In this document: positions 1 to 13,234 of the stretch, in pieces
Position numbering within the stretch: the first letter of the stretch is position 1
How the letters are laid out: each line of letters begins with the position of its first letter
DNA from: Acidobacteriota bacterium
GTDB taxonomy: Bacteria; Acidobacteriota; Blastocatellia; Chloracidobacteriales; JADJPF01
Assembly (NCBI GenBank): GCA_016213785.1
Contig: JACQZQ010000061.1
Coordinates: 1-64,000, forward strand
Reading direction: 5' to 3'
DNA length: 64,000 nucleotides
Made by a program: the position numbers and the translations under genes
The notes under the pieces: model-generated
The model's database searches: none
What the model saw: the letters and a program-made list of their open reading frames with translations, nothing else
What the model was told of the DNA's origin: nothing

Positions 1-25
1 TAGTCGTAACGTTTGGTGTTGCTAG
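1..25 (+). CDS. 3' end of a third WCC-type RiPP precursor gene (partial)
   Basis: Only the last seven codons lie in the window. From base 2 they read Ser-Arg-Asn-Val-Trp-Cys-Cys, with the stop at 23-25. This is the same ending as the two complete precursor genes downstream (Thr-Arg-Arg-Ala-Trp-Cys-Cys and Ser-Arg-Lys-Thr-Trp-Cys-Cys), so I read it as the tail of a tandem paralogue whose start lies before the window. The next precursor starts 44 bases later, so both are probably on one transcript. The match is only seven codons long, but Trp-Cys-Cys-stop at the right spacing from two paralogues is unlikely by chance. Confidence 0.7.
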
Positions 26-69
26 TTATTAGAAGCTGTAGGAAACAATGATATTAGAGAGGAAAATTC

Positions 70-324
70 ATGAAAAACAAAAATATTTTGTCAAATGTTA
101 CCAATGATGATCTAGATTTCAATATTGAAGAAATAGAACAGGTGATTGCTCCTCAAGTAGATAGCGGCACAGATGATGGTACTGATACCGGTGATAATGG
201 CTCTGGTGGCTCTGGCGTTGATGAGATAGAAGTTGACGATAGCGATAACGTTGGTGGTGGTAAAGGTGGAGCTACTACTGATGGACACTTTACTAGTAAT
301 ACCCGTAGAGCTTGGTGTTGTTAG
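70..324 (+). CDS. RiPP (lanthipeptide-type) precursor peptide, WCC family
   Basis: An 84-residue acidic peptide with a clear ribosome site (GAGAGGAAAA) just upstream. Residues about 14-34 form a leader block (DLDFNIEEIEQVIAPQVDS) that is nearly identical in the next gene. The rest is a Gly/Asp/Ser/Thr-rich stretch ending in Thr-Arg-Arg-Ala-Trp-Cys-Cys. The only two cysteines are the last two residues, and there is no Gly-Gly protease site between leader and core. A LanM synthetase 6.5 kb downstream on the same strand would dehydrate Ser/Thr and add Cys thiols, so I infer this is one of its substrates. The peptide matches no precursor family I know. It could be a substrate of another modifying enzyme, or a Cys-Cys metal ligand. 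Confidence 0.75.
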   Translation: MKNKNILSNVTNDDLDFNIEEIEQVIAPQVDSGTDDGTDTGDNGSGGSGVDEIEVDDSDNVGGGKGGATTDGHFTSNTRRAWCC

Positions 325-426
325 CCAATTTGGTTTTGCTAGTTTTCAATAGAGAAAATTTCTGCTAAACGTTTTATAACCTTACATTAAGTTTATAAAA
401 TATGTGTTTAGGTTGTTTCAAATTAT

Positions 427-475
427 GGAAAAGTGAAAGAGTTTTTCTAAGTTAAGAAAAGTTTTTCGCTTTTCC
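427..475 (+). terminator. Hairpin between two precursor genes (possible attenuator)
   Basis: A 12-base arm at 427-438 pairs with 464-475 with one mismatch, and a second 6-bp stem (TTTTCT / AGAAAA) is nested inside. No strong T-run follows, so it may be a leaky terminator or an RNA-stabilising structure that keeps precursor mRNA in excess over the downstream enzyme genes. The rest of the gap between the two precursor genes is AT-rich and non-coding. Confidence 0.4.
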
Positions 476-530
476 CTCATTTAGCTTGTTAAGACCCATG
501 ATTTTTTACATATTTAGGCGTTTTCCTATT

Positions 531-560
531 TTGCAAAACTATAAAAAACAAAGGTATATT
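531..560 (+). promoter_or_regulatory. Putative sigma-70 type promoter for the second precursor
   Basis: TTGCAA at 531-536 and TATATT at 555-560 are 18 bases apart, about 26 bases before the start codon of the second precursor. A ribosome site (AGGAGA at 573-578) follows with 8 bases to the ATG. In an AT-rich gap such matches occur by chance, so this is tentative. Confidence 0.35.
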
Positions 561-586
561 AAAAACATATTTAGGAGAAAATCTAG

Positions 587-814
587 ATGCAGAATTTAAG
601 AGTAAACCCACTAAACACAGAGTATTTTAATGATTTTGATTTTAACATCGAAGACATAAAAAAGATTCTTGCTCCACAAATAGACTCTGACACAAATAAT
701 GATGAAACTATTCCTATTGCCCCTAATGATAATAGTACAGAAAATAATCCTACAGAAAATGATACCAATGAACATGGCAATATAAGTTCTAGCCGTAAAA
801 CTTGGTGTTGTTAA
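587..814 (+). CDS. RiPP (lanthipeptide-type) precursor peptide, WCC family, second copy
   Basis: A 75-residue acidic peptide, paralogue of the gene at 70-324. The leader block at about residues 16-37 (DFDFNIEDIKKILAPQIDS) aligns without gaps to the first copy. The middle is Asn/Asp/Glu/Thr-rich and differs strongly, and the end is again Ser-Arg-Lys-Thr-Trp-Cys-Cys. Conserved leader, variable middle and conserved last residues are the pattern expected for an enzyme-recognised leader plus a modified core. The two terminal Cys are the only cysteines. The TonB receptor gene begins 49 bases downstream, so this copy is probably cotranscribed with the rest of the cluster. Confidence 0.78.
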   Translation: MQNLRVNPLNTEYFNDFDFNIEDIKKILAPQIDSDTNNDETIPIAPNDNSTENNPTENDTNEHGNISSSRKTWCC

Positions 815-863
815 ATATTAGAAAATATAAATAAAAATAACTCTTTAACTGAAGGAGAGGCGC

Positions 864-3797
864 ATGTTTGTAAAAAGATTTGGGACTCTAATAGCTATTG
901 CCTTTGCTTTTATATTAGCAGGCTATACACAGGCTCTTGCACAACTAGGAACAGCAGGTATTACAGGGGTAATATATGATGAAACACAAGCTGTTGTTGG
1001 GGGTGCAACTATATCATTAATAAGTAAGCTTACTGGGCAAACACGCCAAACTGTAAGTTCAGAAGAAGGTTTTTTTTCACTACAAAGTTTACAACCTGGA
1101 GATTTTATAATAGAAATCCAAGCAGATGGATTTAATAAGTTAAAACTAGAAAATATCTCTTTAAGTGTAGGAGAAACTATACTCTTAAAAGGAACCCTTA
1201 GGACTTCTACAAGAGAGGATGTAATAGAAGTTCGTTCAGGAGAAACATTTATAGTAAACACCTTCAATCCTCAAATAGCTGGAATTATTTCAGAGAGATC
1301 TGTAGAAAATTTACCACTCAATGGGCGCAATTTTTTAGAGCTAGGACTTTTATTACCAGGCAATACTGCTGCACCTATATTTAATCCTATTAAGGCTTTT
1401 TTATCTCAAGTCTCTTCGTCTGGTCAATCAGCACGAGGGAATGGTGTTTTTGTGGATGGGGCAGATAATAATGAAGATATTATAGGTGGTATACTACAAA
1501 ATTTTCCTATAGATAGTATACGCGAGTTCCAAATACAGCTTGCTCAATATAGTGCTGAGAGTGGTAGATCAAATTCTTCAATTATTAATATTGTTACTAA
1601 AAAAGGTTCTAATGAATTTCATGGTTCTGGAGCTTTTTTCTTTCGCAATGATAAATTATCAGGATTACCTCCAACCCTTGATAGAAGCGCTATTAAAACT
1701 TTAGGCAACCCACCATTTGATCGTCAGCAATATGCTTTTACTCTTGGCGGCCCTATAAAAAACAATCGCCTCCACTTCTTTAATGCTCTTGAGTATCGTA
1801 ATCAAGATGGAATTTTAATAGTCGGCCAAAGAGATACTATTAATAAAGTTGTAAATACTGTTTATACTCCAGCACCTTTAAGGGATTTTTTACTAACTTC
1901 AAGAGTTGATTTAGATCTTACAGAAAAAGATCATATGTTTTTTCGCTATGGTATACAGCGAGAAGATAATATAGGTATTGGTAGTTCTGTTAGACCTATT
2001 GCTACACCAGATTTTCGCTTAAAAGTCTTTAACCGTTCCCAGTCTTTTGTTTATAACTGGGTTCATACTTTTTCCCCTAAATTCTTAAATGACTTTACTG
2101 CAAATGAAACTTATTACACTGATGAAATACCTACTTTTTCTAAAACGCCTTTTGGTGTTAGATTTCCTTCAGTTGATGATGGTAGCGCATCTCAAGACGC
2201 GCCTATAAGTGACCGTCAAAATCGTTTTCAACTTAGAGATGTTTTTAGCTTGATAGCAGGCTCTCATACAATTAAATTTGGTGGCGAAGTGCATTTTGTT
2301 AATACAGAAGGTTTTGATGGTACATTTTCAGGGGGGCTAGTTTCACTTAGAGAAAATTTTGCATCACGTGATCGTAACGGAGATAATAAAATCGATGATA
2401 CCGATATTCCTGTAAACTTTACTGCAAGAGTTACTACTCCTGCTTCTGTTAGAACATTAAATGGTAATAATAACAAATATGTGGGCTTATTTTTTCAAGA
2501 TGATTGGAAGGTAAGGCCAAATTTTACTCTTAACCTTGGCCTACGATATGAACTAGACACTAATGTCACTGCCAGAAATAAATTTAATATAGTTACTCCT
2601 CTTGTAACAGAGCGTGCAAGAATAGATAACAATAACTTTGCTCCACGTATTGGGTTTAATTGGTCGCCTTTTAAGGATAATAAAACATCAATAAGAGGTG
2701 GTTATGGAGTTTTTTATAGCCGTATTTTACTTGCTCTTGCTGCTGGTTCAAGAATATCTACCTCTGGACTTACAGTAGAAGTAAGAAGAGGTTCAGCATT
2801 AGATAGTAATGGAAACTTTTTACCTGGAACACCTACCTTAAATGCAAATACTTTTTCTGGGCGTATAATAGATAATTCAGGCAATGATACAGTAGTTTTT
2901 GATCCTGAATTAGCTACACCTTATATTCAACAATTTAGTTTTGGGATTGAACGTGAATTACCTTATAACATAGTTGTTTCAGCAGATGCTCTACATGCTT
3001 ATGGGTTAAAATTTATCCAGTCCCAAGTTATTAGCCAAGATCCAATTATTTTTTCCAATGTATCTACCTTAAAAAACTGGTATGACAGTTTGCTTGTTAA
3101 AGTAGAGCGACGAAGAGCAAAGAATTTTGATTTTCTTGCTTCTTATACATTCTCAAAATCATTAACTATGTCTCAAGATTTCCAAGTTATTGGAACAGAT
3201 AACCCAAATGTAAATGTTGACAAAGGCGCTCCACCAAACGATATAAGACATCGTTTTTCTTTTTCTGGAATATATAATGCTCCTTTGGGAATAAACATAT
3301 CCTCAATACTTACTCTTGAATCAAATGTTCCTATTAATATTCGTCTTGCTGATGGGTCACGATTACCAATAGCACAAGTTAATGCAGGGGCAAGGCAATT
3401 TAAGACAGGAGCACAGCTTAATGCTTTTATTAGACAAATTAATATGGGTGGCGGTGTTGATGGAGATCCATTACCCTTTGTTTCAGACGACCTAAAATTA
3501 GGAGATGGTTTAACATCACTTGATTTAAGAATAAATAAAGGCTTTAAGATAAAAGATAGTTTCTTTGTCCAAGGCATAGTTGAGGTATTTAATGTCTTTA
3601 ACATTACCAATGTAAGAGGGAGTCGTAATAGTAATTTTTCTGGTATACAAAATATTTTGGTAAGAGATAGCTCTATTGTTACAGACCCTGGATTTCTACG
3701 AGCATCATCTTTTGGTAGACGTATAGAGAATGCTGGTGGAGTTTTTGGTACAGGCGGGCCTCGTGCATTTCAAATTGCTTTACGTCTAAGTTTTTAA
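864..3797 (+). CDS. Oar-like TonB-dependent outer-membrane receptor
   Basis: A 977-residue protein. A signal peptide (about 1-26, ending Ala-Leu-Ala) is followed by a carboxypeptidase-regulatory-like fold (about 30-115, GVIYDETQAVVGGATI) and a TonB plug region (about 120-260, with NGRNFLELG and VFVDGADNNEDI). The remainder is a long beta-barrel ending in the aromatic C-terminus ALRLSF typical of outer-membrane proteins. Such receptors import large ligands or bind secreted proteins and peptides. It lies between the precursor genes and the tailoring enzymes, 49 bases after a precursor and 8 bases before a flavin monooxygenase, so its ligand may be the mature peptide or its metal complex. That role is inferred. 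The ribosome site is GAAGGAGAGG. Confidence 0.88.
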   Translation: MFVKRFGTLIAIAFAFILAGYTQALAQLGTAGITGVIYDETQAVVGGATISLISKLTGQTRQTVSSEEGFFSLQSLQPGDFIIEIQADGFNKLKLENISLSVGETILLKGTLRTSTREDVIEVRSGETFIVNTFNPQIAGIISERSVENLPLNGRNFLELGLLLPGNTAAPIFNPIKAFLSQVSSSGQSARGNGVFVDGADNNEDIIGGILQNFPIDSIREFQIQLAQYSAESGRSNSSIINIVTKKGSNEFHGSGAFFFRNDKLSGLPPTLDRSAIKTLGNPPFDRQQYAFTLGGPIKNNRLHFFNALEYRNQDGILIVGQRDTINKVVNTVYTPAPLRDFLLTSRVDLDLTEKDHMFFRYGIQREDNIGIGSSVRPIATPDFRLKVFNRSQSFVYNWVHTFSPKFLNDFTANETYYTDEIPTFSKTPFGVRFPSVDDGSASQDAPISDRQNRFQLRDVFSLIAGSHTIKFGGEVHFVNTEGFDGTFSGGLVSLRENFASRDRNGDNKIDDTDIPVNFTARVTTPASVRTLNGNNNKYVGLFFQDDWKVRPNFTLNLGLRYELDTNVTARNKFNIVTPLVTERARIDNNNFAPRIGFNWSPFKDNKTSIRGGYGVFYSRILLALAAGSRISTSGLTVEVRRGSALDSNGNFLPGTPTLNANTFSGRIIDNSGNDTVVFDPELATPYIQQFSFGIERELPYNIVVSADALHAYGLKFIQSQVISQDPIIFSNVSTLKNWYDSLLVKVERRRAKNFDFLASYTFSKSLTMSQDFQVIGTDNPNVNVDKGAPPNDIRHRFSFSGIYNAPLGINISSILTLESNVPINIRLADGSRLPIAQVNAGARQFKTGAQLNAFIRQINMGGGVDGDPLPFVSDDLKLGDGLTSLDLRINKGFKIKDSFFVQGIVEVFNVFNITNVRGSRNSNFSGIQNILVRDSSIVTDPGFLRASSFGRRIENAGGVFGTGGPRAFQIALRLSF

Positions 3798-3805
3798 TTT
3801 ATTTT

Positions 3806-4738
3806 ATGGAGACTATAATTCAACCCCTAATAAAATTAGGGGTTTTGGATTTTTGTGAAATACAGCCTGATAGTAACGCTCGCAGCACTTTGATAGAGAC
3901 CCTAAAACTTGCTGCTAGCGTTGATAGTCTAGGTTATTCTCGTTATTGGTTAGGTGAACATCATAATACAAAATTTGCTCAAGTCAGTTTAGCAACTATG
4001 GCTATGGCTTTAGCAGGAAAAACCAAAAACCTTCATATAGGAACAGGTGCCTTACTACTTAACTATCATAACACTTTAAGAGTTGCTAATGATTTTAGGC
4101 TTCTAGAACTGCTTTTTCCTCAACGAATTGACCTAGGTATAGGGCGAGGCATGTTAGCTGATGGTTATGGAGAAGCTTTTCTTGGGGCAGACAAAAATAA
4201 AGTAAAAGACTTAAGTTATTTTGAAAATAAAGTAAAAGACTTATTACTTTATTTAAGAGGTAAAAATAAAGTGATTCCAATACCTAAAAATGTTAACAGC
4301 CCTGAAGTTTGGCTTTTAGGTAAAAACATAGGTAGTATGTCTCTTGCTGCTCATTATGGAACTAGGTTTAGTTTTTCTCTTTTTTTAGGTGCAACTCAGA
4401 TAGAAGCAAGTACTGTTTTGGCAGAATATAAAGCTACCTTTCAACCTAGCAAAGAACTAACTAAACCCCAGTGTAGTTTAGCAATAGCTGGACATTGTAC
4501 AGATAGTCAAACCCAAATTTTATACCTTAACAAAATATATAGCCAAGAAGATGCTAATATAGTTCCAACAATAATAGGAACTCCTAAACAATGCCTAGAA
4601 AAACTCCAAGAACTTAATCAACAATGCAAAGTAGATGAAATTGTTTTTCTAGACATTAGCACTAGTTTACAAGACAAACTACGATCATATCAGTTATTAG
4701 CAGAAATATGTGGTTTAACTAAAAAGTCAGAAGTCTAA
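3806..4738 (+). CDS. Luciferase-like (LLM class) flavin-dependent oxidoreductase, MsnO8-type
   Basis: A 310-residue bacterial-luciferase-fold monooxygenase. The family pattern is clear: an N-terminal strand (LGVLDFCEI), the GYSRYWLGEHH block near residue 50, the IGTGALLL segment, and FPQRIDLGIGRG around residue 110. These enzymes use reduced FMN and oxygen to oxidise small molecules, and several RiPP and polyketide clusters use them for tailoring. It starts 8 bases after the TonB receptor with no good ribosome site of its own, which suggests translational coupling. A role in oxidising the modified peptide, for example at the conserved Trp or Cys, is inference. No flavin reductase is seen nearby. 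Confidence 0.82.
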   Translation: METIIQPLIKLGVLDFCEIQPDSNARSTLIETLKLAASVDSLGYSRYWLGEHHNTKFAQVSLATMAMALAGKTKNLHIGTGALLLNYHNTLRVANDFRLLELLFPQRIDLGIGRGMLADGYGEAFLGADKNKVKDLSYFENKVKDLLLYLRGKNKVIPIPKNVNSPEVWLLGKNIGSMSLAAHYGTRFSFSLFLGATQIEASTVLAEYKATFQPSKELTKPQCSLAIAGHCTDSQTQILYLNKIYSQEDANIVPTIIGTPKQCLEKLQELNQQCKVDEIVFLDISTSLQDKLRSYQLLAEICGLTKKSEV

Positions 4739-4770
4739 AAAATTTAGTTTGTTCTTATGGAGAACGATAA

Positions 4771-6735
4771 ATGCAAGTATTATCAGCTTTACTAATAATT
4801 CTTCTTATTCCTATCATATCCGTTATGGCTCAACAATCATCTTTAACAACTACAATTATAACTGACCCAAATCAGGTTTTTAGCAGAGCTAAAGAAGATG
4901 CTCAAAGCTATTCTGCCGAACATTTTATGGTTACGCGTGCTATTGATGATAGTAGTTGGTCGCCTGATGGGAATACTATAGCCTTTATTAGCAATATGAG
5001 TGGGCGTAGAAATATTTGGCTAGTGTCTGCTAATGGAGGATGGCCTAAACAACTTACTATAAGCGACCAACAACAAGCATATTTAACTTGGTCAGGTGAT
5101 GGTAAGTGGATAGCTTATATGTCTGATTATGATGGTGATGAGCAATGGGATATTTTTTTAGTTTCTCCATTAAATGGTGAAGTAATAAATCTTACAAATA
5201 GTCTTGATGCTTCTGAGGAATTTCCTTCTTGGTCTCCTGATAGTAGCAAACTAGTTTATCAGATAAGGGAAAAAGATGCTTCCTCCTATGAAATTCATGT
5301 AATGGACATTTCTAGCCGCAAAGTCCAAAAATTAACAACAAAAACTCCAGGAGAGCTTTCTAATAATAATCCTGTTTGGTCAGCAGATGGCTTGCAAGTT
5401 GCCTATACACAGTTTAGTGCTGATGGAGGGACTTCAAATATTTTTATAGTTGAAACTGCAACAGGAAAGACCACTAATCTTACTTCAAAGATGGAAAGTA
5501 GACTTTATGCTATTAAATCTTGGTCAATAGATGGAAAAAAATTATTGATTAACTCTGATGCAGCAAATGGTTATGAAAATGTTGGATTATTTGATCTTGT
5601 TTCCAAAAAAATTGAATGGTTAACTCAAGATAAATCAAGGTCTGAGGCTGGCAATTTTTCTCCTGATGGTAAAACCATAACTTGGGTATCAAATGTTAAT
5701 GGCAACAAAGAGATTTTTTTCTATGATATAAATAAAAAAGAAAAGAGTATTTTACCTATAACTAAAGGAGTAAATACTTTAGCGGGTAGTGAGACTGCAT
5801 TTACTAAAGATGGCTCTAAATTACTTTTTTATCATAATGGCCCTGACTCACCTAAAGATATTTGGGTTTATTTAACAAAAGAACAAAAATTTCATCAAGT
5901 TACTCATTCATTTGTAGGTGCAGTAAAAGGAGAAGATTTAGTTCAACCTTTTTCTATTGAGTATCTTAGCAGTGATGGTAAATGGAAAATTTCAGCCTTT
6001 GTTTATGTTCCACATAACCTTAAACCTAATAAGCAAAACCCTGCTATTGTTTGGATACACGGTGGGCCATCAACCCAGTCTGTAAATTGGTTTAACCCTA
6101 TAATTCAATATGTTGTGAACCAAGGCTATCTAGTTATAATACCTAATTACCGAGGATCAACTGGTTATGGTACTGAGTTTATGAATGCAAATAAACTTGA
6201 TGCAGGTGGAGGGGATTTATCAGATATTATAGCGGCTGCTGAATGGATGAAAAAAACAGGTTATGTTGATCCTAAAAAACTAATAGCAATGGGTGGTAGT
6301 TATGGAGGTTATTTAACCTCTTTGGCTTTAGCAAAATCTCCAGAAAATTGGGCAGCCGGTGTAGCAATAATTCCTTTTGTTAATTGGTTTACAGAAGTAG
6401 AAAATGCAGATCCTTCAACTCGTGAATATTTATTAAGTATTATGGGAGATCCTGTTGCTAATAAAACTTTATGGCAAGATCGTTCCCCTATTTATTTTGC
6501 AGATAAAATAAAAGCTCCAATGTTAATTTTAGCTGGAGGCAAAGACCCAAGATGCCCTAAATCAGAGGCTGAACAGATAACTAATGAAATAAAAAAACAA
6601 AATGGTATAGCAGAATTAAAAATATATGAAAATGAAGGGCATGGCTTTTCTCGTATAGAAAATGAAATAGATGCACTAAAAAATATTGGTAGTTTTTTGA
6701 AAAAGCATGTTCCACCATCTCCTAAAAAACAATAA
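4771..6735 (+). CDS. Exported S9-family prolyl oligopeptidase-like serine peptidase
   Basis: A 654-residue protein with a signal peptide (hydrophobic 1-19, then MAQQ). It has a WD40/PD40-type beta-propeller of repeated WSPDG/WSADG strands (about 50-380) and a C-terminal alpha/beta-hydrolase. The catalytic triad is visible: Ser510 in GGSYGG, Asp592 in GGKDPR and His624 in NEGHGF. Family members (acylaminoacyl/dipeptidyl peptidases) cut short peptides that fit inside the propeller. A periplasmic S9 enzyme in this cluster is a natural candidate for trimming the leader or for degrading imported peptide. The precursors have no Gly-Gly site and no C39 peptidase is present, which supports a separate protease. 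A ribosome site (TGGAG) precedes the ATG. Confidence 0.88.
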   Translation: MQVLSALLIILLIPIISVMAQQSSLTTTIITDPNQVFSRAKEDAQSYSAEHFMVTRAIDDSSWSPDGNTIAFISNMSGRRNIWLVSANGGWPKQLTISDQQQAYLTWSGDGKWIAYMSDYDGDEQWDIFLVSPLNGEVINLTNSLDASEEFPSWSPDSSKLVYQIREKDASSYEIHVMDISSRKVQKLTTKTPGELSNNNPVWSADGLQVAYTQFSADGGTSNIFIVETATGKTTNLTSKMESRLYAIKSWSIDGKKLLINSDAANGYENVGLFDLVSKKIEWLTQDKSRSEAGNFSPDGKTITWVSNVNGNKEIFFYDINKKEKSILPITKGVNTLAGSETAFTKDGSKLLFYHNGPDSPKDIWVYLTKEQKFHQVTHSFVGAVKGEDLVQPFSIEYLSSDGKWKISAFVYVPHNLKPNKQNPAIVWIHGGPSTQSVNWFNPIIQYVVNQGYLVIIPNYRGSTGYGTEFMNANKLDAGGGDLSDIIAAAEWMKKTGYVDPKKLIAMGGSYGGYLTSLALAKSPENWAAGVAIIPFVNWFTEVENADPSTREYLLSIMGDPVANKTLWQDRSPIYFADKIKAPMLILAGGKDPRCPKSEAEQITNEIKKQNGIAELKIYENEGHGFSRIENEIDALKNIGSFLKKHVPPSPKKQ

Positions 6736-6776
6736 TTTTTGTAGCTACAAATCTTAAAAGTTTGGATTAATTTAAG

Positions 6777-9700
6777 ATGTTAAATTTTACTGAATCGGCA
6801 GATTGGTATCGTGCTATTAACTTAAAGGAACGTATTAGTTTATTAAGTAAATTATCAGGCTTAGAAACTTTAGAAAATATGCCTGATCTTGAACTTGCAC
6901 AAGATAGATTAAAGAAGTGGCGCAATTTCTCACCCCTTAAAAAAGATAAAATCTTTGCCCAATGGCTAAATCTAGAAGGTATTACAGAACAAGACTTACT
7001 CTATTTGTTAGGTCAATCAAATGACATTCTAAAACAATGTTATGAAAGCACCCCTGAATGGCTAAAAACTATTTTTAGAGCTTTTACCTATCAAAATGAA
7101 GGGAAAATAGGTCTTCCTGTAAAATTACCTAAACTAATCCAAGATGAAAGTATAATAGGCTTTTTAGACGTAATTAAACCTCTTATTGATGAATGTTGTG
7201 AAACATTAAATAAAGCAATTCAACAACTTAGCAATGAATATAAAGAACTTCCCTTTGACCCTAACACAATAAAAGATATTCTTTTGATCAATATTTTACC
7301 TGATTTATTAATGGAATTAATTCAAACAATGGTAAAAAAATGTGACGAGTTGCGTCAAAAAGGGTTGCTTAAAGGAGATACTTCTAAACAAAGATATGAG
7401 TATTTTTTAGACTATATGCGTCAAAAAGATCAAGCTCTTGCCTTATTACAAGAATATCCTGTTTTAGGGCGACGACTGATAATAATATTAAATAATTGGG
7501 TGAAATTTAGTATTGAAACCCTTGAGAGGTTATGTCGAGATTGGATAAATATAAAAAATGTATTCACTCCAGAAAAAGATCCTGGAATTATTATATTGGA
7601 TAAAGAAAGTAGTGTAGGAGATAGTCATAAAAGTGGACAAGTAATAACATTAACATTTAGTTCTGGGTTTAAGCTACTTTATAAACCTCGTTCTTTATCT
7701 ATGGATTTACATTTTCAGCAACTCTTGGAATGGCTTAATAACAAAGGGATAAAGCCAGAGTTTCGTACATTAAAAGTTCTTGATTGTTCTAGCTATGGTT
7801 GGATGGAATTTGTTACTTTTCAAAGCTGTAGCTCAGAAAATGAAATTACTAATTTTTATTATCGTCAGGGAGGAAACTTAGCACTTTTATATATACTTTA
7901 TGGAGTCGATTTCCATAGTGAAAATTTAATTGCCGCAGGTGAGCATCCTATACTAGTTGACCTAGAAACACTTTTTTCTCAACCAGATGAAAATAACTCT
8001 AATAATAAAGCAGCTAAATATTTACAAGAATCTGTACTAAGAACAGGGTTATTACCAATGCAAATTTTTGGTAATAATCAGCATAAAGGCATAGATTTTA
8101 GCGGATTAGCAGGGCTATCAGGTCAATTAACTCCTTATCCTTTACCCTATTTAGAATTATCTGGAACAGATGAAATACACATTGTACGTAAACAGCTTAG
8201 ATATGAGGAAGAAAATACTCATCGGCCTAAACTCAATGGTAAAGATGTTATTTTATGGGACTATATTGACACAATAGTTAAGGGTTTTACAGATGTCTAT
8301 CAAATATTGCAAAAAAATACAGCAGCCTTGATATCAAGCGATGGTTTAGATGGTTTAATAACTCGTTTTGCTAAAGATGAAGTAAGAATAATTCTACGTT
8401 CTACTAGAGATTATGGTGTATTGCTAACAGAAAGTTCTAATCCTAATATGTTACGTAATGCTATTGCTTGTGAATGGCTTTTTGATAATTTATGGAAGAA
8501 GACAGAAGACTATCCTTTTTTATTAAAAGTAATTGCTAGTGAGCGAGAATCGTTGTTAGAAGGCTTTATTCCTCGTTTTATAACGCATCCTGACTCAACT
8601 GATTTGTGGAGTGATGATAAAAAATGCGTTCCTAATTTTTTTACTAAACCAGTTATAGATTTTGTTAAGACTCGCTTGCAAAACCTTAGTGATGAAGATC
8701 TTAAAAAACAAATATGGCTTATTCGTGCTTCATTTATTACCTTAGTTGAAGATACAGAAAATGTTAAGCCAAAGTCTTATAAGTTTAATTTAAACAATAA
8801 CAAAACTATTGATAATAAATCTCTTATTAAAACGGCTACTGCAATTGGAGATTGCCTAGCAAACTTAGCTATAACTTACCAAAATAAAGCATCTTGGATA
8901 AGCTTACAAGTTGGAAACTTAAATAATTACTATATCTCTCCATCAAAGTTAGATTTATATGATGGTCTTCCTGGTACTACATTATTTTTAGCATATCTTG
9001 GTTATATTACTAATCAGCTTGTTTACACAGAGTTAGCAAAACAGGCAATGGAAAATATAAGACAACAAATAAAACAACCTAAAAACAAAGAGCTTCAAAA
9101 TGTTGGAGGTTATGGCGGATTAAGCGGTATTATTTATCTACTAACTCATTTAGCTAAATTATGGAATGATCCTTCGCTAATAACAGAAGCCGTAGAAATA
9201 GCTAAACAACTGCCTTTTTTAATAGAAAAAGACAACCGTTTTGATCTTATTTATGGTAGTGCAGGATGTATTACTAGCCTAATGAATTTATATAAGTTTG
9301 TTGTTAACCCTCAGGACTTAGAACAAATAAAGAGCATAATAATACAATCTGGAAAGCATCTTGTTTCTAAAATTGAGATAACCCCAGAAGGAAAAGGCTG
9401 GACAACAATTCCAGGGAAAAAGCCTCCACTCGGAATGTCTCATGGGGTAGCTGGGATTGCTTGGGCACTGTTAGAACTTTCTAGTTTTACAAAAGACAGT
9501 AATTTTGCTGATCTAGCACAAGAAGCCTTAAGTTATGAACGAAGTTTTTTTTCTCCTTTAATGGGTAATTGGCCTGATATAAATAGAGATGATACAGATG
9601 AAAAATTTAGAGTAACTTGGTGTCATGGCGCAACAGGAATAGGAATTGCCCGATTATTATCAGTAGAACATCTTTCTACTGATAAACTTATTGATCAAGA

Positions 9701-10022
9701 AATTAGCATTGCAGTAAAAACAGTAATTAATAATGGATTTGGTAACAATCATTCACTTTGTCATGGTGATTTAGGAAATTTGGATTTTCTACTACAAGTA
9801 ATAGAAAAACAACCTAATTACAAAATCCATAACCAAGTGCAAAATATAGCTTCGGTTATTTTTAACAATATAGATAAACAGGGTTGGTTATGCGGGACTC
9901 CGCTTAGTGCAGAGTCCCCAGGTTTAATGGTTGGAATTGCGGGAATTGGTTATCAGTTATTACGTTTGGCTTCATCTTCTGTAGTTCCTTCCATTCTTTG
10001 TTTAGCGCCTCCAAAAATTTAA
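6777..10022 (+). CDS. lanM: Class II lanthipeptide synthetase LanM
   Basis: A 1081-residue bifunctional enzyme. The N-terminal dehydratase (DUF4135) phosphorylates and eliminates Ser/Thr. Its kinase-like motifs are visible: Asp282-x-His284 in GDSHKSG, the KLLYKPRS strand, His380 and Asn383 in DFHSENL, and Asp395 in VDLETLF. The C-terminal LanC-like cyclase (about 710-1075) has the repeated GG/HG helices, His889 in SHGVAG, and the three zinc ligands Cys949 (WCHGATG), Cys995 and His996 (LCHGDLG). Both halves look intact, so I expect lanthionine or methyllanthionine formation on the cluster's precursors. The start is weakly marked, 41 bases after the peptidase gene. Length and motif order fit normal LanM proteins. 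Confidence 0.93.
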   Translation: MLNFTESADWYRAINLKERISLLSKLSGLETLENMPDLELAQDRLKKWRNFSPLKKDKIFAQWLNLEGITEQDLLYLLGQSNDILKQCYESTPEWLKTIFRAFTYQNEGKIGLPVKLPKLIQDESIIGFLDVIKPLIDECCETLNKAIQQLSNEYKELPFDPNTIKDILLINILPDLLMELIQTMVKKCDELRQKGLLKGDTSKQRYEYFLDYMRQKDQALALLQEYPVLGRRLIIILNNWVKFSIETLERLCRDWINIKNVFTPEKDPGIIILDKESSVGDSHKSGQVITLTFSSGFKLLYKPRSLSMDLHFQQLLEWLNNKGIKPEFRTLKVLDCSSYGWMEFVTFQSCSSENEITNFYYRQGGNLALLYILYGVDFHSENLIAAGEHPILVDLETLFSQPDENNSNNKAAKYLQESVLRTGLLPMQIFGNNQHKGIDFSGLAGLSGQLTPYPLPYLELSGTDEIHIVRKQLRYEEENTHRPKLNGKDVILWDYIDTIVKGFTDVYQILQKNTAALISSDGLDGLITRFAKDEVRIILRSTRDYGVLLTESSNPNMLRNAIACEWLFDNLWKKTEDYPFLLKVIASERESLLEGFIPRFITHPDSTDLWSDDKKCVPNFFTKPVIDFVKTRLQNLSDEDLKKQIWLIRASFITLVEDTENVKPKSYKFNLNNNKTIDNKSLIKTATAIGDCLANLAITYQNKASWISLQVGNLNNYYISPSKLDLYDGLPGTTLFLAYLGYITNQLVYTELAKQAMENIRQQIKQPKNKELQNVGGYGGLSGIIYLLTHLAKLWNDPSLITEAVEIAKQLPFLIEKDNRFDLIYGSAGCITSLMNLYKFVVNPQDLEQIKSIIIQSGKHLVSKIEITPEGKGWTTIPGKKPPLGMSHGVAGIAWALLELSSFTKDSNFADLAQEALSYERSFFSPLMGNWPDINRDDTDEKFRVTWCHGATGIGIARLLSVEHLSTDKLIDQEISIAVKTVINNGFGNNHSLCHGDLGNLDFLLQVIEKQPNYKIHNQVQNIASVIFNNIDKQGWLCGTPLSAESPGLMVGIAGIGYQLLRLASSSVVPSILCLAPPKI

Positions 10023-10041
10023 TTTAAGTGGTGAGTAAATA

Positions 10042-11385
10042 ATGTCAGAAAAGGTTTTAGCTGATAAAAATACCATTTCTCAACCTACAACAAATACTAC
10101 AGCCGAATCTTCTGGTTTTGAGAAAAAATCTTTGTATAAATCAATTAAACTACATAAAGGTTTTTATTGGAGCATTTTAATAGTTCTTTTGCTAGTAGCA
10201 GCTTTTTCTCGTTGGGAAGTAACTGTAACAAGTGATTGCATTCTATTACCTGAAAAAGACCAATCCCTTGTTGCTTCTGTCCAAGAAAGTGGAGTATTAA
10301 AAGAAATTAAAGTAAAAGAAGGTGACTGGGTTGCTAGGGATGCTGTTTTAGCTATTTGCCAAGATATAGATATGGAAAAACAGTTATTAAAACTTAGTGC
10401 AGACATAAAACAATCCCAAGGCCGCCTTACTACATTGGAAAATCAATATGCTGAACAGCAAGCTAATGTTGAACAAGCTAAAAGTTACTACCAACAACGC
10501 CAACACGAAGCAACAGAACTAGTAGCAGAAGAAGAAGCAATAAAAAAGTATAAAAGTACAGGAGAATTGCTTTCAGAATATCCACCAGAATTACTTGAAC
10601 TAAATGCCCAAATACAAACTAAACAAAGCGAAGAACAAATTCAATTATTAGAGAAAAACCGTTACACTTTTCTCTTTAGTCAAGGCTTAGTTTCACAATT
10701 ACAAGTTGATGAATCAACAAGTCGTTATCAAATTACAACGCTAAATCGGCGTGCTGCTGAAGATCGTATGCGTGCTGGGGAACTAACTCATAGACGTAAA
10801 GTAAAAACAGCTACAACAGAAGAAAAAGTTACTCATGAAAACTTACAAGCTGCACTATATAAACTAAAAGCTTTAGAAACAGAAATGCAATCAATTAATA
10901 GCGAAATTTCTTCTAGTAGCAATGAATTAACTTTGCTTGAAAAAAAGAAAGAAGCTTTAACTATTAAAGCTGCTCAAGATGGTTTGGTTTTAGGACAAGA
11001 TATTGAAAAAAAGCTAGGCCAATATTTAGAAAGAGGAAGCGAATTTTGTCGTATTGCTAATATTTCAGAACTTCGTGCTGTTGTTGCTGTTTCAGAAAAA
11101 GAGATTACACAAGTTCGTTTAGGTAGTAATGTACGTATTCGTATCCGTTCACTAGTGGATCAAGTTTTTAATGGAACTGTTAGTTACATTGGTACTGAAG
11201 CAACCATAAAACCAGAAAATAACTTACGTGTATACAATTGTGAGGTAAAAGTAAAAAATGTTAGAGAACTTTTACGTCCAGGTATGAGTGGAGTAACTCG
11301 AATATCATTATCCTATCAACCAGGCTATATTATTCTATTTAGATGGCTTAAAGGTCTAGTAAAACTAGAATACTGGGTCTGGTAA
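10042..11385 (+). CDS. HlyD-family periplasmic adaptor / membrane fusion protein
   Basis: A 447-residue protein with one N-terminal membrane segment (about 41-56). A first biotinyl-lipoyl half-motif (ESGVLKEIKVKEGDWV, about 83-98) is followed by long Gln/Glu-rich coiled coils (about 110-310), then the second lipoyl half and beta-barrel (SELRAVVAVSEKEITQV). Such adaptors link an inner-membrane ABC or peptidase-containing transporter to the outer membrane. It starts 19 bases after lanM with a GGTGAG site and is the last gene of the cluster. Export of the modified peptide is the likely job, but no transporter partner is encoded after it. The partner may lie before the window or elsewhere. The C-terminal tail is unusually hydrophobic and aromatic. 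Confidence 0.85.
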   Translation: MSEKVLADKNTISQPTTNTTAESSGFEKKSLYKSIKLHKGFYWSILIVLLLVAAFSRWEVTVTSDCILLPEKDQSLVASVQESGVLKEIKVKEGDWVARDAVLAICQDIDMEKQLLKLSADIKQSQGRLTTLENQYAEQQANVEQAKSYYQQRQHEATELVAEEEAIKKYKSTGELLSEYPPELLELNAQIQTKQSEEQIQLLEKNRYTFLFSQGLVSQLQVDESTSRYQITTLNRRAAEDRMRAGELTHRRKVKTATTEEKVTHENLQAALYKLKALETEMQSINSEISSSSNELTLLEKKKEALTIKAAQDGLVLGQDIEKKLGQYLERGSEFCRIANISELRAVVAVSEKEITQVRLGSNVRIRIRSLVDQVFNGTVSYIGTEATIKPENNLRVYNCEVKVKNVRELLRPGMSGVTRISLSYQPGYIILFRWLKGLVKLEYWVW

Positions 11386-11419
11386 GGTAAATAAAAGTAA
11401 ATAAGAGTAAATTTTGATG

Positions 11420-11447
11420 AAATATAAGCTTATATAAACTTATATTT
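11420..11447. terminator. Inverted repeat at the convergent end of the RiPP cluster
   Basis: AAATATAAG at 11420-11428 pairs perfectly with CTTATATTT at 11439-11447 across a 10-base loop. It sits between two converging genes and overlaps the stop of the AraC gene. It is A/T only, so the stem is weak, but the position fits a bidirectional terminator. Confidence 0.4.
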
Positions 11448-12330
11448 TGGTTCTGATATTATTAACGTCTTTTATGGGCGAAGTACCAAACATTCTTGAA
11501 TACTCGCGGCTAAATTGAGAAGGGCTTTCATACCCTACACGATAGGAAGTATTAGCTGCATCACTCATTTCCAATAACATAATGCGGCGAGCCTCTAAAA
11601 GCCTCAACCGTTTTTGATACTGTAATGGAGTCATTGATGTTATTTCTTTAAAATGATGATGGAAAGAAGATAGGCTCATACTTACCATATTTGCCATATC
11701 CTCTACACTGATAGGTTTTGAGAAATTATTTTTTAACATTTCAATAACCCGTGCAATCTTTTGCATATTACTACCAGCTATTGCTATTTGTGCAATTTTT
11801 TGCCCATGTTCAGTATTAAGAAAACGATAATAAAGCTCTTGCATAATCAATGGAGATAGAATAGCAATATCTTTTGGTGTATCTAAAAGTCTTATAAGCC
11901 TTAAAATACAATCACTAAGTAAACTATCTAGTTTACCTACAAATAATCCCCTATAAGAAGTTGTATTTGTAGATTGGTTTTTATCCATCTTTGCTACTAA
12001 CTCTGTTAATTGATGTGCAACAATATCAAACTGAATACAGAGATAAGGCTTTTCTTTACTTGCTTCTACAACCTGACCTACTACTGGAAGATTGACTGAT
12101 ACGGCTAGATAATCTGATACAGAGTATTCATAAAATTCTTGTCCTAACATTAGTTGTTTTCTACCTTGTACAATGACACAAAGAGATGGGTTATAAACTA
12201 TAGGAAGTTTGCTGCTTGGTTCTGAAGTTCTAAAAAAGCTCAAACCATTGATTGCTGTTGGTTCTGCATCTTCTGTATGGGAGTGTTTATTAAGCAAAGA
12301 AATCAGTTCATTTTGTTGTTTGTTATTCAT
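11440..12330 (-). CDS. AraC-family transcriptional regulator (AraC_N type)
   Basis: A 296-residue regulator. The N-terminal cupin-like AraC_N domain (about 15-180; the segment NPSLCVIVQGRKQLMLGQ is characteristic) precedes two helix-turn-helix motifs (about 190-290, SVEDMANMVSMSLSSFHHHFK and SRVGYESPSQFSREYSRMFG-like). It is divergent from an SDR and an aldo/keto reductase, with about 150 bases between. That layout resembles YqhC-type regulators that induce aldehyde reductases under reactive-carbonyl stress. Regulation of its two neighbours is therefore likely, and control of the RiPP cluster cannot be excluded. Confidence 0.88.
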   Translation of the reverse strand: MNNKQQNELISLLNKHSHTEDAEPTAINGLSFFRTSEPSSKLPIVYNPSLCVIVQGRKQLMLGQEFYEYSVSDYLAVSVNLPVVGQVVEASKEKPYLCIQFDIVAHQLTELVAKMDKNQSTNTTSYRGLFVGKLDSLLSDCILRLIRLLDTPKDIAILSPLIMQELYYRFLNTEHGQKIAQIAIAGSNMQKIARVIEMLKNNFSKPISVEDMANMVSMSLSSFHHHFKEITSMTPLQYQKRLRLLEARRIMLLEMSDAANTSYRVGYESPSQFSREYSRMFGTSPIKDVNNIRTKI

Positions 12331-12481
12331 AATTAAACCATAACTTAAAAATATTTGTTGTATAAGCTTTATTATTTTTTAATTTGGAGAAATAGGCAAT
12401 TATTTAACACGTTTATGTATTTAAAAAAACTTTTTCTGGCTTACTATAGACTTATCATAAATACAAAGAAAGGTTTTGATA

Positions 12482-13234
12482 ATGAGTATAGCAATTGTAA
12501 CAGGTGGAAGTCGTGGTTTGGGAAAAAGTATCTCTTTACATCTTGCCCAAAAACGCCATGACATTATTTTGACTTATAACAACAAAAAAAATGAAGCTGA
12601 AGAAGTTGTAAAGTTAATTGAAAATAGCGGTAACAAAGCTTTGGCATTGCAACTAGATGTGTCTGAGCATAAGTCTTTTACCCAATTTGCTGAAACTGTT
12701 AAAGAAGTTCTAAAGACAAACTGGGAGCGTGATAGCTTTGATTTTCTAATCAATAATGCAGGAGTTGGTATACATGCTTCTTTTATGGAAACCACAGAAC
12801 AGCAATTTGATCAGTTAATGAACACTCATTTTAAGGGTACGTTTTTCTTAACACAAAAATTACTTCCTTTTATAAAAAATGGAGGGCGTATAGTAAACAT
12901 CTCTTCGGGGCTAGCGCGTTTTAGCTTTCCTGGTTATTCTGCTTATGCAGCAATGAAAGGCGCTATTGAAGTACTAACACGTTATATGGCAAAAGAATTA
13001 GGCTCTCGCAATATTGCCGTAAATGTTATTGCTCCTGGAGCAATAGAGACTGATTTTGGTGATGGTAGTGTACGAGATAATAAAGAGTTAAATGCTTTTA
13101 TTTCTTCACTTACAGCACTAGGGCGCGTAGGTTTGCCTGATGATATAGGAGGTGCTGTGGCAGCCCTTCTATCTGAAGATAGTCGTTGGATAAATGGGCA
13201 ACGTATTGAAGTAGCTGGTGGAATCTTCCTATAA
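12482..13234 (+). CDS. Short-chain dehydrogenase/reductase (SDR)
   Basis: A 250-residue classical SDR. It has the nucleotide-binding TGGSRGLGKSI motif near residue 7, the NNAGVG motif, a catalytic Ser in INISSGLA-type sequence, and YAAMKGA giving Tyr-x-x-x-Lys. The C-terminus IEVAGGIFL is typical of 3-oxoacyl-ACP-reductase-like SDRs. I place the start at the ATG at 12482, with AAAGG 8 bases upstream; an in-frame TTG two codons earlier lacks support. Substrate unknown. It is probably induced together with the following aldo/keto reductase by the divergent AraC protein. Confidence 0.88.
   Translation: MSIAIVTGGSRGLGKSISLHLAQKRHDIILTYNNKKNEAEEVVKLIENSGNKALALQLDVSEHKSFTQFAETVKEVLKTNWERDSFDFLINNAGVGIHASFMETTEQQFDQLMNTHFKGTFFLTQKLLPFIKNGGRIVNISSGLARFSFPGYSAYAAMKGAIEVLTRYMAKELGSRNIAVNVIAPGAIETDFGDGSVRDNKELNAFISSLTALGRVGLPDDIGGAVAALLSEDSRWINGQRIEVAGGIFL

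Follow-up and report, generated by a model that had tools for sequence, protein, structure and literature searches.

We think it likely that the small genes at the start of the 64,000-nucleotide stretch of DNA analyzed here (the window) belong to an array of class II lanthipeptide precursors, from which the LanM of the same operon would make a probably two-ring C-terminal product, with the leader removed by an M50-HlyD fusion protease, an S9 peptidase or both, rather than by a C39 peptidase. The action of this LanM on the precursors, the number of rings, the assignment of the proteases and the role of the product are what we infer from sequence; our working idea is a small two-ring peptide exported via an HlyD/TonB route. 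Relative to the first-pass annotation of this DNA, the finding is larger in extent (five copies, and a second species), narrower in its claim, with the leader and the processing route as its main unusual features.

Precursor copies and the extent of the array

The window starts at base 1 of contig C42 in an assembly of 6.4 Mb and 132 contigs. The first-pass annotation had described three consecutive ends sharing [S/T]-R-x-x-W-C-C-stop, two of them on complete reading frames with a common leader, and had proposed that the array starts outside the window. We re-read the open reading frames at 70-324 and 587-814 and the remnant at 2-25 and found the ends and leader as described; extension to the left led to contig C87, which begins with three further copies on its minus strand. 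The window genome thus has five copies (A to E), of which A, B and a truncated C lie on C87 and the remnant of C, D and E lie in the window:

C87 540-388, minus strand: copy A, complete precursor
C87 349-194, minus strand: copy B, complete precursor
C87 149-1, minus strand: 5' part of copy C, the first 49 codons, then the contig edge
Window 2..25, plus strand: 3' end of copy C, SRNVWCC-stop; probable start at C87:149, minus strand (L027)
Window 70..324, plus strand: copy D, 84 aa; leader MKNKNILSNVTNDDLDFNIEEIEQVIAPQ, Asp/Gly-rich linker of 46 aa, core SNTRRAWCC (end ...TSNTRRAWCC)
Window 587..814, plus strand: copy E, 75 aa; leader ...DFDFNIEDIKKILAPQ, linker of 35 aa, core SSSRKTWCC (end ...ISSSRKTWCC)

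On the simplest reading, A to E form one array and the assembly broke inside near-identical repeats. At the C87 edge, copy C is in the frame in which the window opens, provided that the two contigs abut, and we infer the join from this frame and from the repeat structure. Joined directly, copy C would end in DPSSRNVWCC, with Pro at -9 instead of Ser/Thr, and would be the only such copy; thus, a small gap between the contigs is possible. A genome-wide search (6.4 Mb) with YTGGTGYTGYTAR, the codons for W-C-C-stop, gave 24 matches, five of which read [S/T]RxxWCC (all three ends in the window, plus two on C87) and carry the leader wherever they are complete. We rejected the remaining matches as extra copies elsewhere in the genome, since they are chance short frames.

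Every precursor copy has a ribosome-binding site, which is of the AGGA type before both complete window reading frames, D and E. No terminator-like sites were found within the array, the number of promoter-like sites there was near the shuffled expectation, and no Rfam elements were found in window 1-12500. The spacer between D and E is 262 bases long (window 325-586) and contains, by eye, an imperfect inverted repeat at about 425-475, with no terminator-like match.

The conserved tail is longer than the first-pass annotation had it, in that a second Ser/Thr lies two residues before the first in 8/8 complete copies from the two genomes of the genus. All eight follow the rule [S/T]9-x-[S/T]7-R6-x-x-W3-C2-C1, so that the core has two Ser/Thr and two Cys, in equal number, throughout; copies B, X1 and X3 carry an additional, third Cys at -8. 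Among these copies, pN/pS was 0.22 for the leader and 0.33 for the last nine codons, and the six key positions of the core had a pS of 0.68 and a pN of 0.04. Thus, leader and tail are under purifying selection, while the middle diverges between copies, as had been noted: the linker (11-46 residues) is unconserved and Asp/Gly/Asn-rich, with D/E/G/N/S/T/P/Q making up 60-83%. The leader is acidic-amphipathic, with the consensus D-x-D-F-N-I-E-E-[IV]-E-Q-[VI]-[VI]-A-P-Q. In copy X3 of the sister genome (L089:4844-5005), the residues at -9 and -7 are the sole Ser/Thr after the leader; thus, they would be the ring donors, if LanM acts on X3.

The operon and the Ala-Pro leader

Downstream of the array, five genes, from that for the TonB receptor to that for the HlyD protein, follow in tight succession:

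864..3797, plus strand: TonB-dependent outer-membrane receptor with a carboxypeptidase-regulatory domain (Oar-like); Pfam OMP_b-brl_4 279 bits, CarboxypepD_reg 50 bits
3806..4738, plus strand: luciferase-like (LLM) flavin oxidoreductase, MsnO8 family; TIGR03558 207 bits, cut-off 167
4771..6735, plus strand: S9 peptidase, acylaminoacyl/prolyl oligopeptidase-like; Peptidase_S9 164 bits
6777..10022, plus strand: LanM class II lanthipeptide synthetase; TIGR03897 933 bits, cut-off 304
10042..11385, plus strand: HlyD-type membrane fusion protein; HlyD_D23 59 bits, HlyD_3 53 bits

The next gene (11440-12330; AraC-type by eye) has the opposite orientation, on the minus strand, and no ABC transporter gene adjoins the HlyD gene. 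The LanM is bifunctional, with a DUF4135 dehydratase, a LanC-like cyclase, intact catalytic residues and a CHG-type zinc site; in its match to LicM2 (6st5; 449 bits), the motifs KPRSL, VDFHxEN, DLETLF, R..R.T, WCHG and LCHG are aligned. The LLM enzyme is a possible tailoring enzyme and may reduce or oxidize core residues. The S9 peptidase, which has an apparent signal peptide (by eye) and 5l8s as its nearest solved relative, is a candidate leader or linker peptidase. Upstream of the array and divergent from it, C87 encodes a 1024-aa protein in which an M50 membrane protease (HEIGH motif) is fused to an HlyD adaptor.

The same organization recurs in a sister genome of the same genus, the Blastocatellia (Acidobacteriota) MAG nzgw73 (G402), which has four precursor copies. 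The order precursors-TonB-LLM-S9-LanM-HlyD is kept across two contigs: C379 has two copies followed by the genes for the TonB receptor (L088:1782-4715), the LLM enzyme (L088:811-1731) and the start of the S9 peptidase, and L026 has the rest of S9, a LanM orthologue 70% identical to that of the window, and, after it, the HlyD gene. The other two copies, on contig C217, adjoin a divergent M50-HlyD gene and are flanked by unrelated genes. Since C217 runs into these and not into the TonB-LanM operon, linkage to the LanM operon in this genome holds for two copies only; the divergent M50-HlyD gene adjoins precursors in both genomes. The first-pass annotation had staked the family on W-C-C homologues near lanM in other genomes, and such copies do recur, with LanM, in this second species.

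Read together, these genes suggest a pathway in which the operon LanM would most likely dehydrate the two core Ser/Thr and then join both terminal Cys to the dehydrated residues, so that the nine-residue core becomes a compact C-terminal peptide with two rings. The divergently encoded M50-HlyD protein, the S9 peptidase or both would remove the leader, cutting after Ala-Pro or in the linker, and passage through the envelope would involve the HlyD protein and the TonB receptor. An ordinary Gly-Gly LanM system would, in this proposal, have switched to the M50-HlyD route, possibly with S9.

The leader ends in Ala-Pro, not Gly-Gly. C39 peptidases cut Gly-Gly leaders, and among class II lanthipeptides a Gly-Gly leader end with a C39 LanT is common, not universal. 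A search for C39 (PF03412) found none in the window genome (G000) and G402 and was positive in eight control genomes; a third genome with the leader, G403, gave one weak match. Counted from Ala-Pro as the leader end, the window copies have E/D at -8, but I/V at -7, compared to the (E/D -8)(L/M -7) motif frequent in class II leaders (PMC7268733). Aligned by their ends, D-F-N-I-E-E-V-E-Q-V-I-A-P is in register with the cyanobacterial E-L-S-D-E-D-M-S-S-V-A-G-G, with Ala-Pro over Gly-Gly. The shuffle fractions for this likeness were 0.007-0.63 per peptide, with the best match elsewhere in 3/12, and a relationship between the Ala-Pro and Gly-Gly leaders is suggested, weakly, by the alignment.

We found peptides with the Ala-Pro (AP) motif beside 7/9 near-full-length M50-HlyD loci in genomes of the class, mostly at loci with no LanM nearby; the motif was written after four of the nine loci had been seen, and 3/5 of the others then matched. 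No such peptides occurred in 335 kb of control DNA. Thus, the AP leader is tied to M50-HlyD, whose N-terminal domain is likely, if weakly, PqqD-like (leader-binding), with a match below the family cut-off. M50 proteases and S9 prolyl oligopeptidases are both known RiPP maturation enzymes (PMC10885120). The first-pass annotation had seen in the array the pattern of RiPP precursors recognized by a single enzyme. The precursors are indeed of RiPP type, with a common recognition block and an intact LanM adjacent, recurring in a second species; since the leader motif also occurs on M50-HlyD-linked peptides without LanM, reading by one enzyme alone is not evident.

The AP-motif peptides of the M50-HlyD loci appear to be an undescribed peptide family. 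Some are repeat peptides that combine a leader-like AP motif with an HNE/HNET unit, for example DEVELQIEEIEEIIAPGITLNHNE seven times or VEVELTVEEAEAVIAPGIxLQHNET four times, at L097:9066-9704 (G402), L094:9556-9897 minus (G275), L095:1368-1706 (G505) and L146:4978-5235 minus (G507); they are mostly beside M50-HlyD genes, and some also by TPR genes. Others are tiny (31-37 aa), with a few residues (RVAAIA, FLLSE, RLLAA, AVIVGH or LTLAE) after ...EEVVAPG or ...EEVVAP, at L148:944-1057 and 1192-1299, L149:4266-4361 minus, L096:10228-10332 minus and L109:1480-1581 minus. These tiny peptides, mostly beside M50-HlyD genes without LanM nearby, are a possible undescribed family of secreted or signaling peptides.

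Distribution of leader, core and LanM type

Strong matches to the leader profile occurred in only three of 162 genomes of the class, all of which have LanM, and in none outside family f1 among 396 sampled genomes of the phylum, 22 of which have a LanM-like match. Other Acidobacteriota LanM loci were considered as leader carriers and rejected, since those read have Gly-Gly or Nif11-like leaders. A plasmid collection yielded no precursor matches and 200 LanM matches, all below 60% identity.

The third genome, G403, belongs to another genus of the same family and has the leader on five genes, two by LanM (one cut by a contig edge) and three elsewhere. Of its four readable cores, one reads RRHCDTCSC and another TRRWCDTWCWCVSF, a third is longer and has four Cys, and the fourth, by LanM, has a single Cys; three of them are multi-Cys and lanthipeptide-like. 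W-C-C cores were seen in the two genomes of one genus only. Since the same leader has other cores outside that genus, W-C-C is a genus-level core type and the leader defines the family; W-C-C as the family signature, as first proposed, does not hold. M50-HlyD was not found in G403 (83% complete), though its precursors keep the AP leader. The leader peptide encoded at L093:2726-2905 of this genome, whose core is SPTRRWCDTWCWCVSF, closely follows an S9 gene (3128-5206 minus), the product of which is 26% identical to the window S9.

In a LanM tree, the three LanMs of the AP-leader genomes form one clade (100/100), beside cyanobacterial LanMs with Gly-Gly leaders and a C39 transporter. The zinc site is WCHG/LCHG in the window and sister enzymes and LCCG in the G403 LanM (L091:850-4071) of the same clade. 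The CCG motif has been linked to the promiscuity of ProcM (PMC10783134). The other sampled CCG LanMs lie in a separate clade; thus, the G403 change, seen on one MAG contig, is apparently independent, and it coincides with scattered precursors with divergent cores. We tentatively propose, at somewhat less than even confidence, that Gly-Gly and C39 were swapped for the AP leader of an M50-HlyD peptide system that elsewhere has no LanM, and that within one family a CHG branch with fixed W-C-C arrays stands against a branch that gained CCG independently, along with divergent cores on scattered precursors; ProcM-like promiscuity would then have arisen in nature a second time. The family pair, CHG with fixed cores and CCG with divergent ones, is a natural setting in which to ask if LanM promiscuity is caused by the third Cys zinc ligand.

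Alternative readings and known systems

We considered that the precursors might instead be scaffold peptides, as in pearlin pathways, with the LLM oxidoreductase converting the W-C-C residues into a small molecule that the M50 protease would cut free, the leader and linker serving as a handle and LanM having a minor or different part. Consistent with this idea, the leaders weakly match the ammosamide/lymphostin model NF033737 (E 0.004-0.016; 15-17 bits, cut-off 30), scaffold peptides are known whose C-terminal amino acids, once modified, are released by the M50 proteases TglG and TmoG (PMC10885120), and a long unconserved linker before an extremely conserved C-terminus fits a scaffold. However, all three genomes with the AP leader have LanM, conservation is as strong at the two Ser/Thr (-9 and -7) as at the Cys pair, and a product made of W-C-C only would have no use for these Ser/Thr, and three G403 cores are multi-Cys and lanthipeptide-like; Lant_dehydr_N (PF04738), sought as a sign of a PEARL (small LanB-like) ligase, has no match in the three genomes, a result that counts for little since the control was also silent. 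We consider the scaffold reading unlikely.

We hold it similarly improbable that LanM acts only in part, forming one lanthionine ring and leaving the vicinal Cys as a disulfide or metal ligand in a metal-binding product recognized by the TonB receptor. In its favor, the receptor gene comes directly after the array in two genomes, a third Cys stands at -8 in some copies (B, X1, X3), and certain class II lantibiotics, the bovicin HJ50-like ones, depend on a disulfide (PMC4018250). Against it, Ser/Thr and Cys are conserved in matching numbers, two of each, in 8/8 complete copies, and the receptor falls in a large carboxypeptidase-regulatory/Oar-like group and gives no sign of metal specificity. 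Chance or decayed repeats, whose short frames are not functional precursors of the window LanM, might explain the unconserved linker and the contig edges inside the array; given the purifying selection at both ends, the ribosome-binding site on every copy, the order kept in a second species and the lack of other such ends in the genome, we regard this as very improbable. If the preferred two-ring lanthipeptide reading is true, a poorly explored phylum has a lanthipeptide core only nine residues long, in which the 2 Ser/Thr : 2 Cys pattern is defined. Its leader may escape genome-mining tools that rely on Gly-Gly and known motifs, and the system would suggest that leader, export and protease modules are exchangeable between RiPP systems.

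Among known systems, the LanM is 41-42% identical over its full length, with the same catalytic motifs, to those of mersacidin/lichenicidin-type class II clusters (LicM2; LanM plasmid clusters of Trichormus variabilis and Dolichospermum), which likewise have an HlyD gene nearby and an acidic leader; in the window copies the E/D falls at -8 if Ala-Pro is taken as the leader end. In contrast to their Gly-Gly leaders and C39-peptidase ABC transporter, the window system has Ala-Pro, M50-HlyD and S9, with short cores arrayed at the extreme C-terminus. The first-pass annotation knew of no described lanthipeptide family with a W-C-C ending; W-C-C itself is known in one genus only, but a C-terminal Cys-Cys has a precedent in the labyrinthopeptins, class III lanthipeptides that end in Cys-Cys. 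Labyrinthopeptins are made by LanKC, whereas the window LanM scores 63 bits with the LanKC model (cut-off 575) and 933 with the LanM model.

As in the prochlorosins, in which one LanM (ProcM) serves many scattered precursors (PMC10783134), one LanM here accompanies several precursors with a common leader, and G403 is prochlorosin-like in its scattered leaders, divergent readable cores and CCG LanM. The window system differs in its CHG (LCHG) LanM, clustered array and nearly invariant core, and the CCG enzyme of G403 lies on another LanM branch than the other CCG enzymes sampled; no Nif11 match to the window precursors was found in Pfam or NCBIfam. An S9 peptidase in a lanthipeptide operon and a conserved leader Pro are shared with flavipeptin FlaP and the class III.3 LanPB prolyl oligopeptidases (PMC10885120, PMC7268733), which belong to a different lanthipeptide class; a cut by the window S9 after Ala-Pro is a proposal only. 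Finally, membrane HExxH M50 proteases also lie beside the RiPP precursors of epipeptides (EpeP/YydH/LiaK), pearlins (TglG/TmoG) and daptides (HExxH). The M50-HlyD protein scores below the cut-off with both the daptide model (193 bits, cut-off 300) and the LiaK model (52 bits, cut-off 225), and, unlike these known proteases, it is fused to HlyD and a weakly PqqD-like N-terminal domain and has a LanM as its partner.
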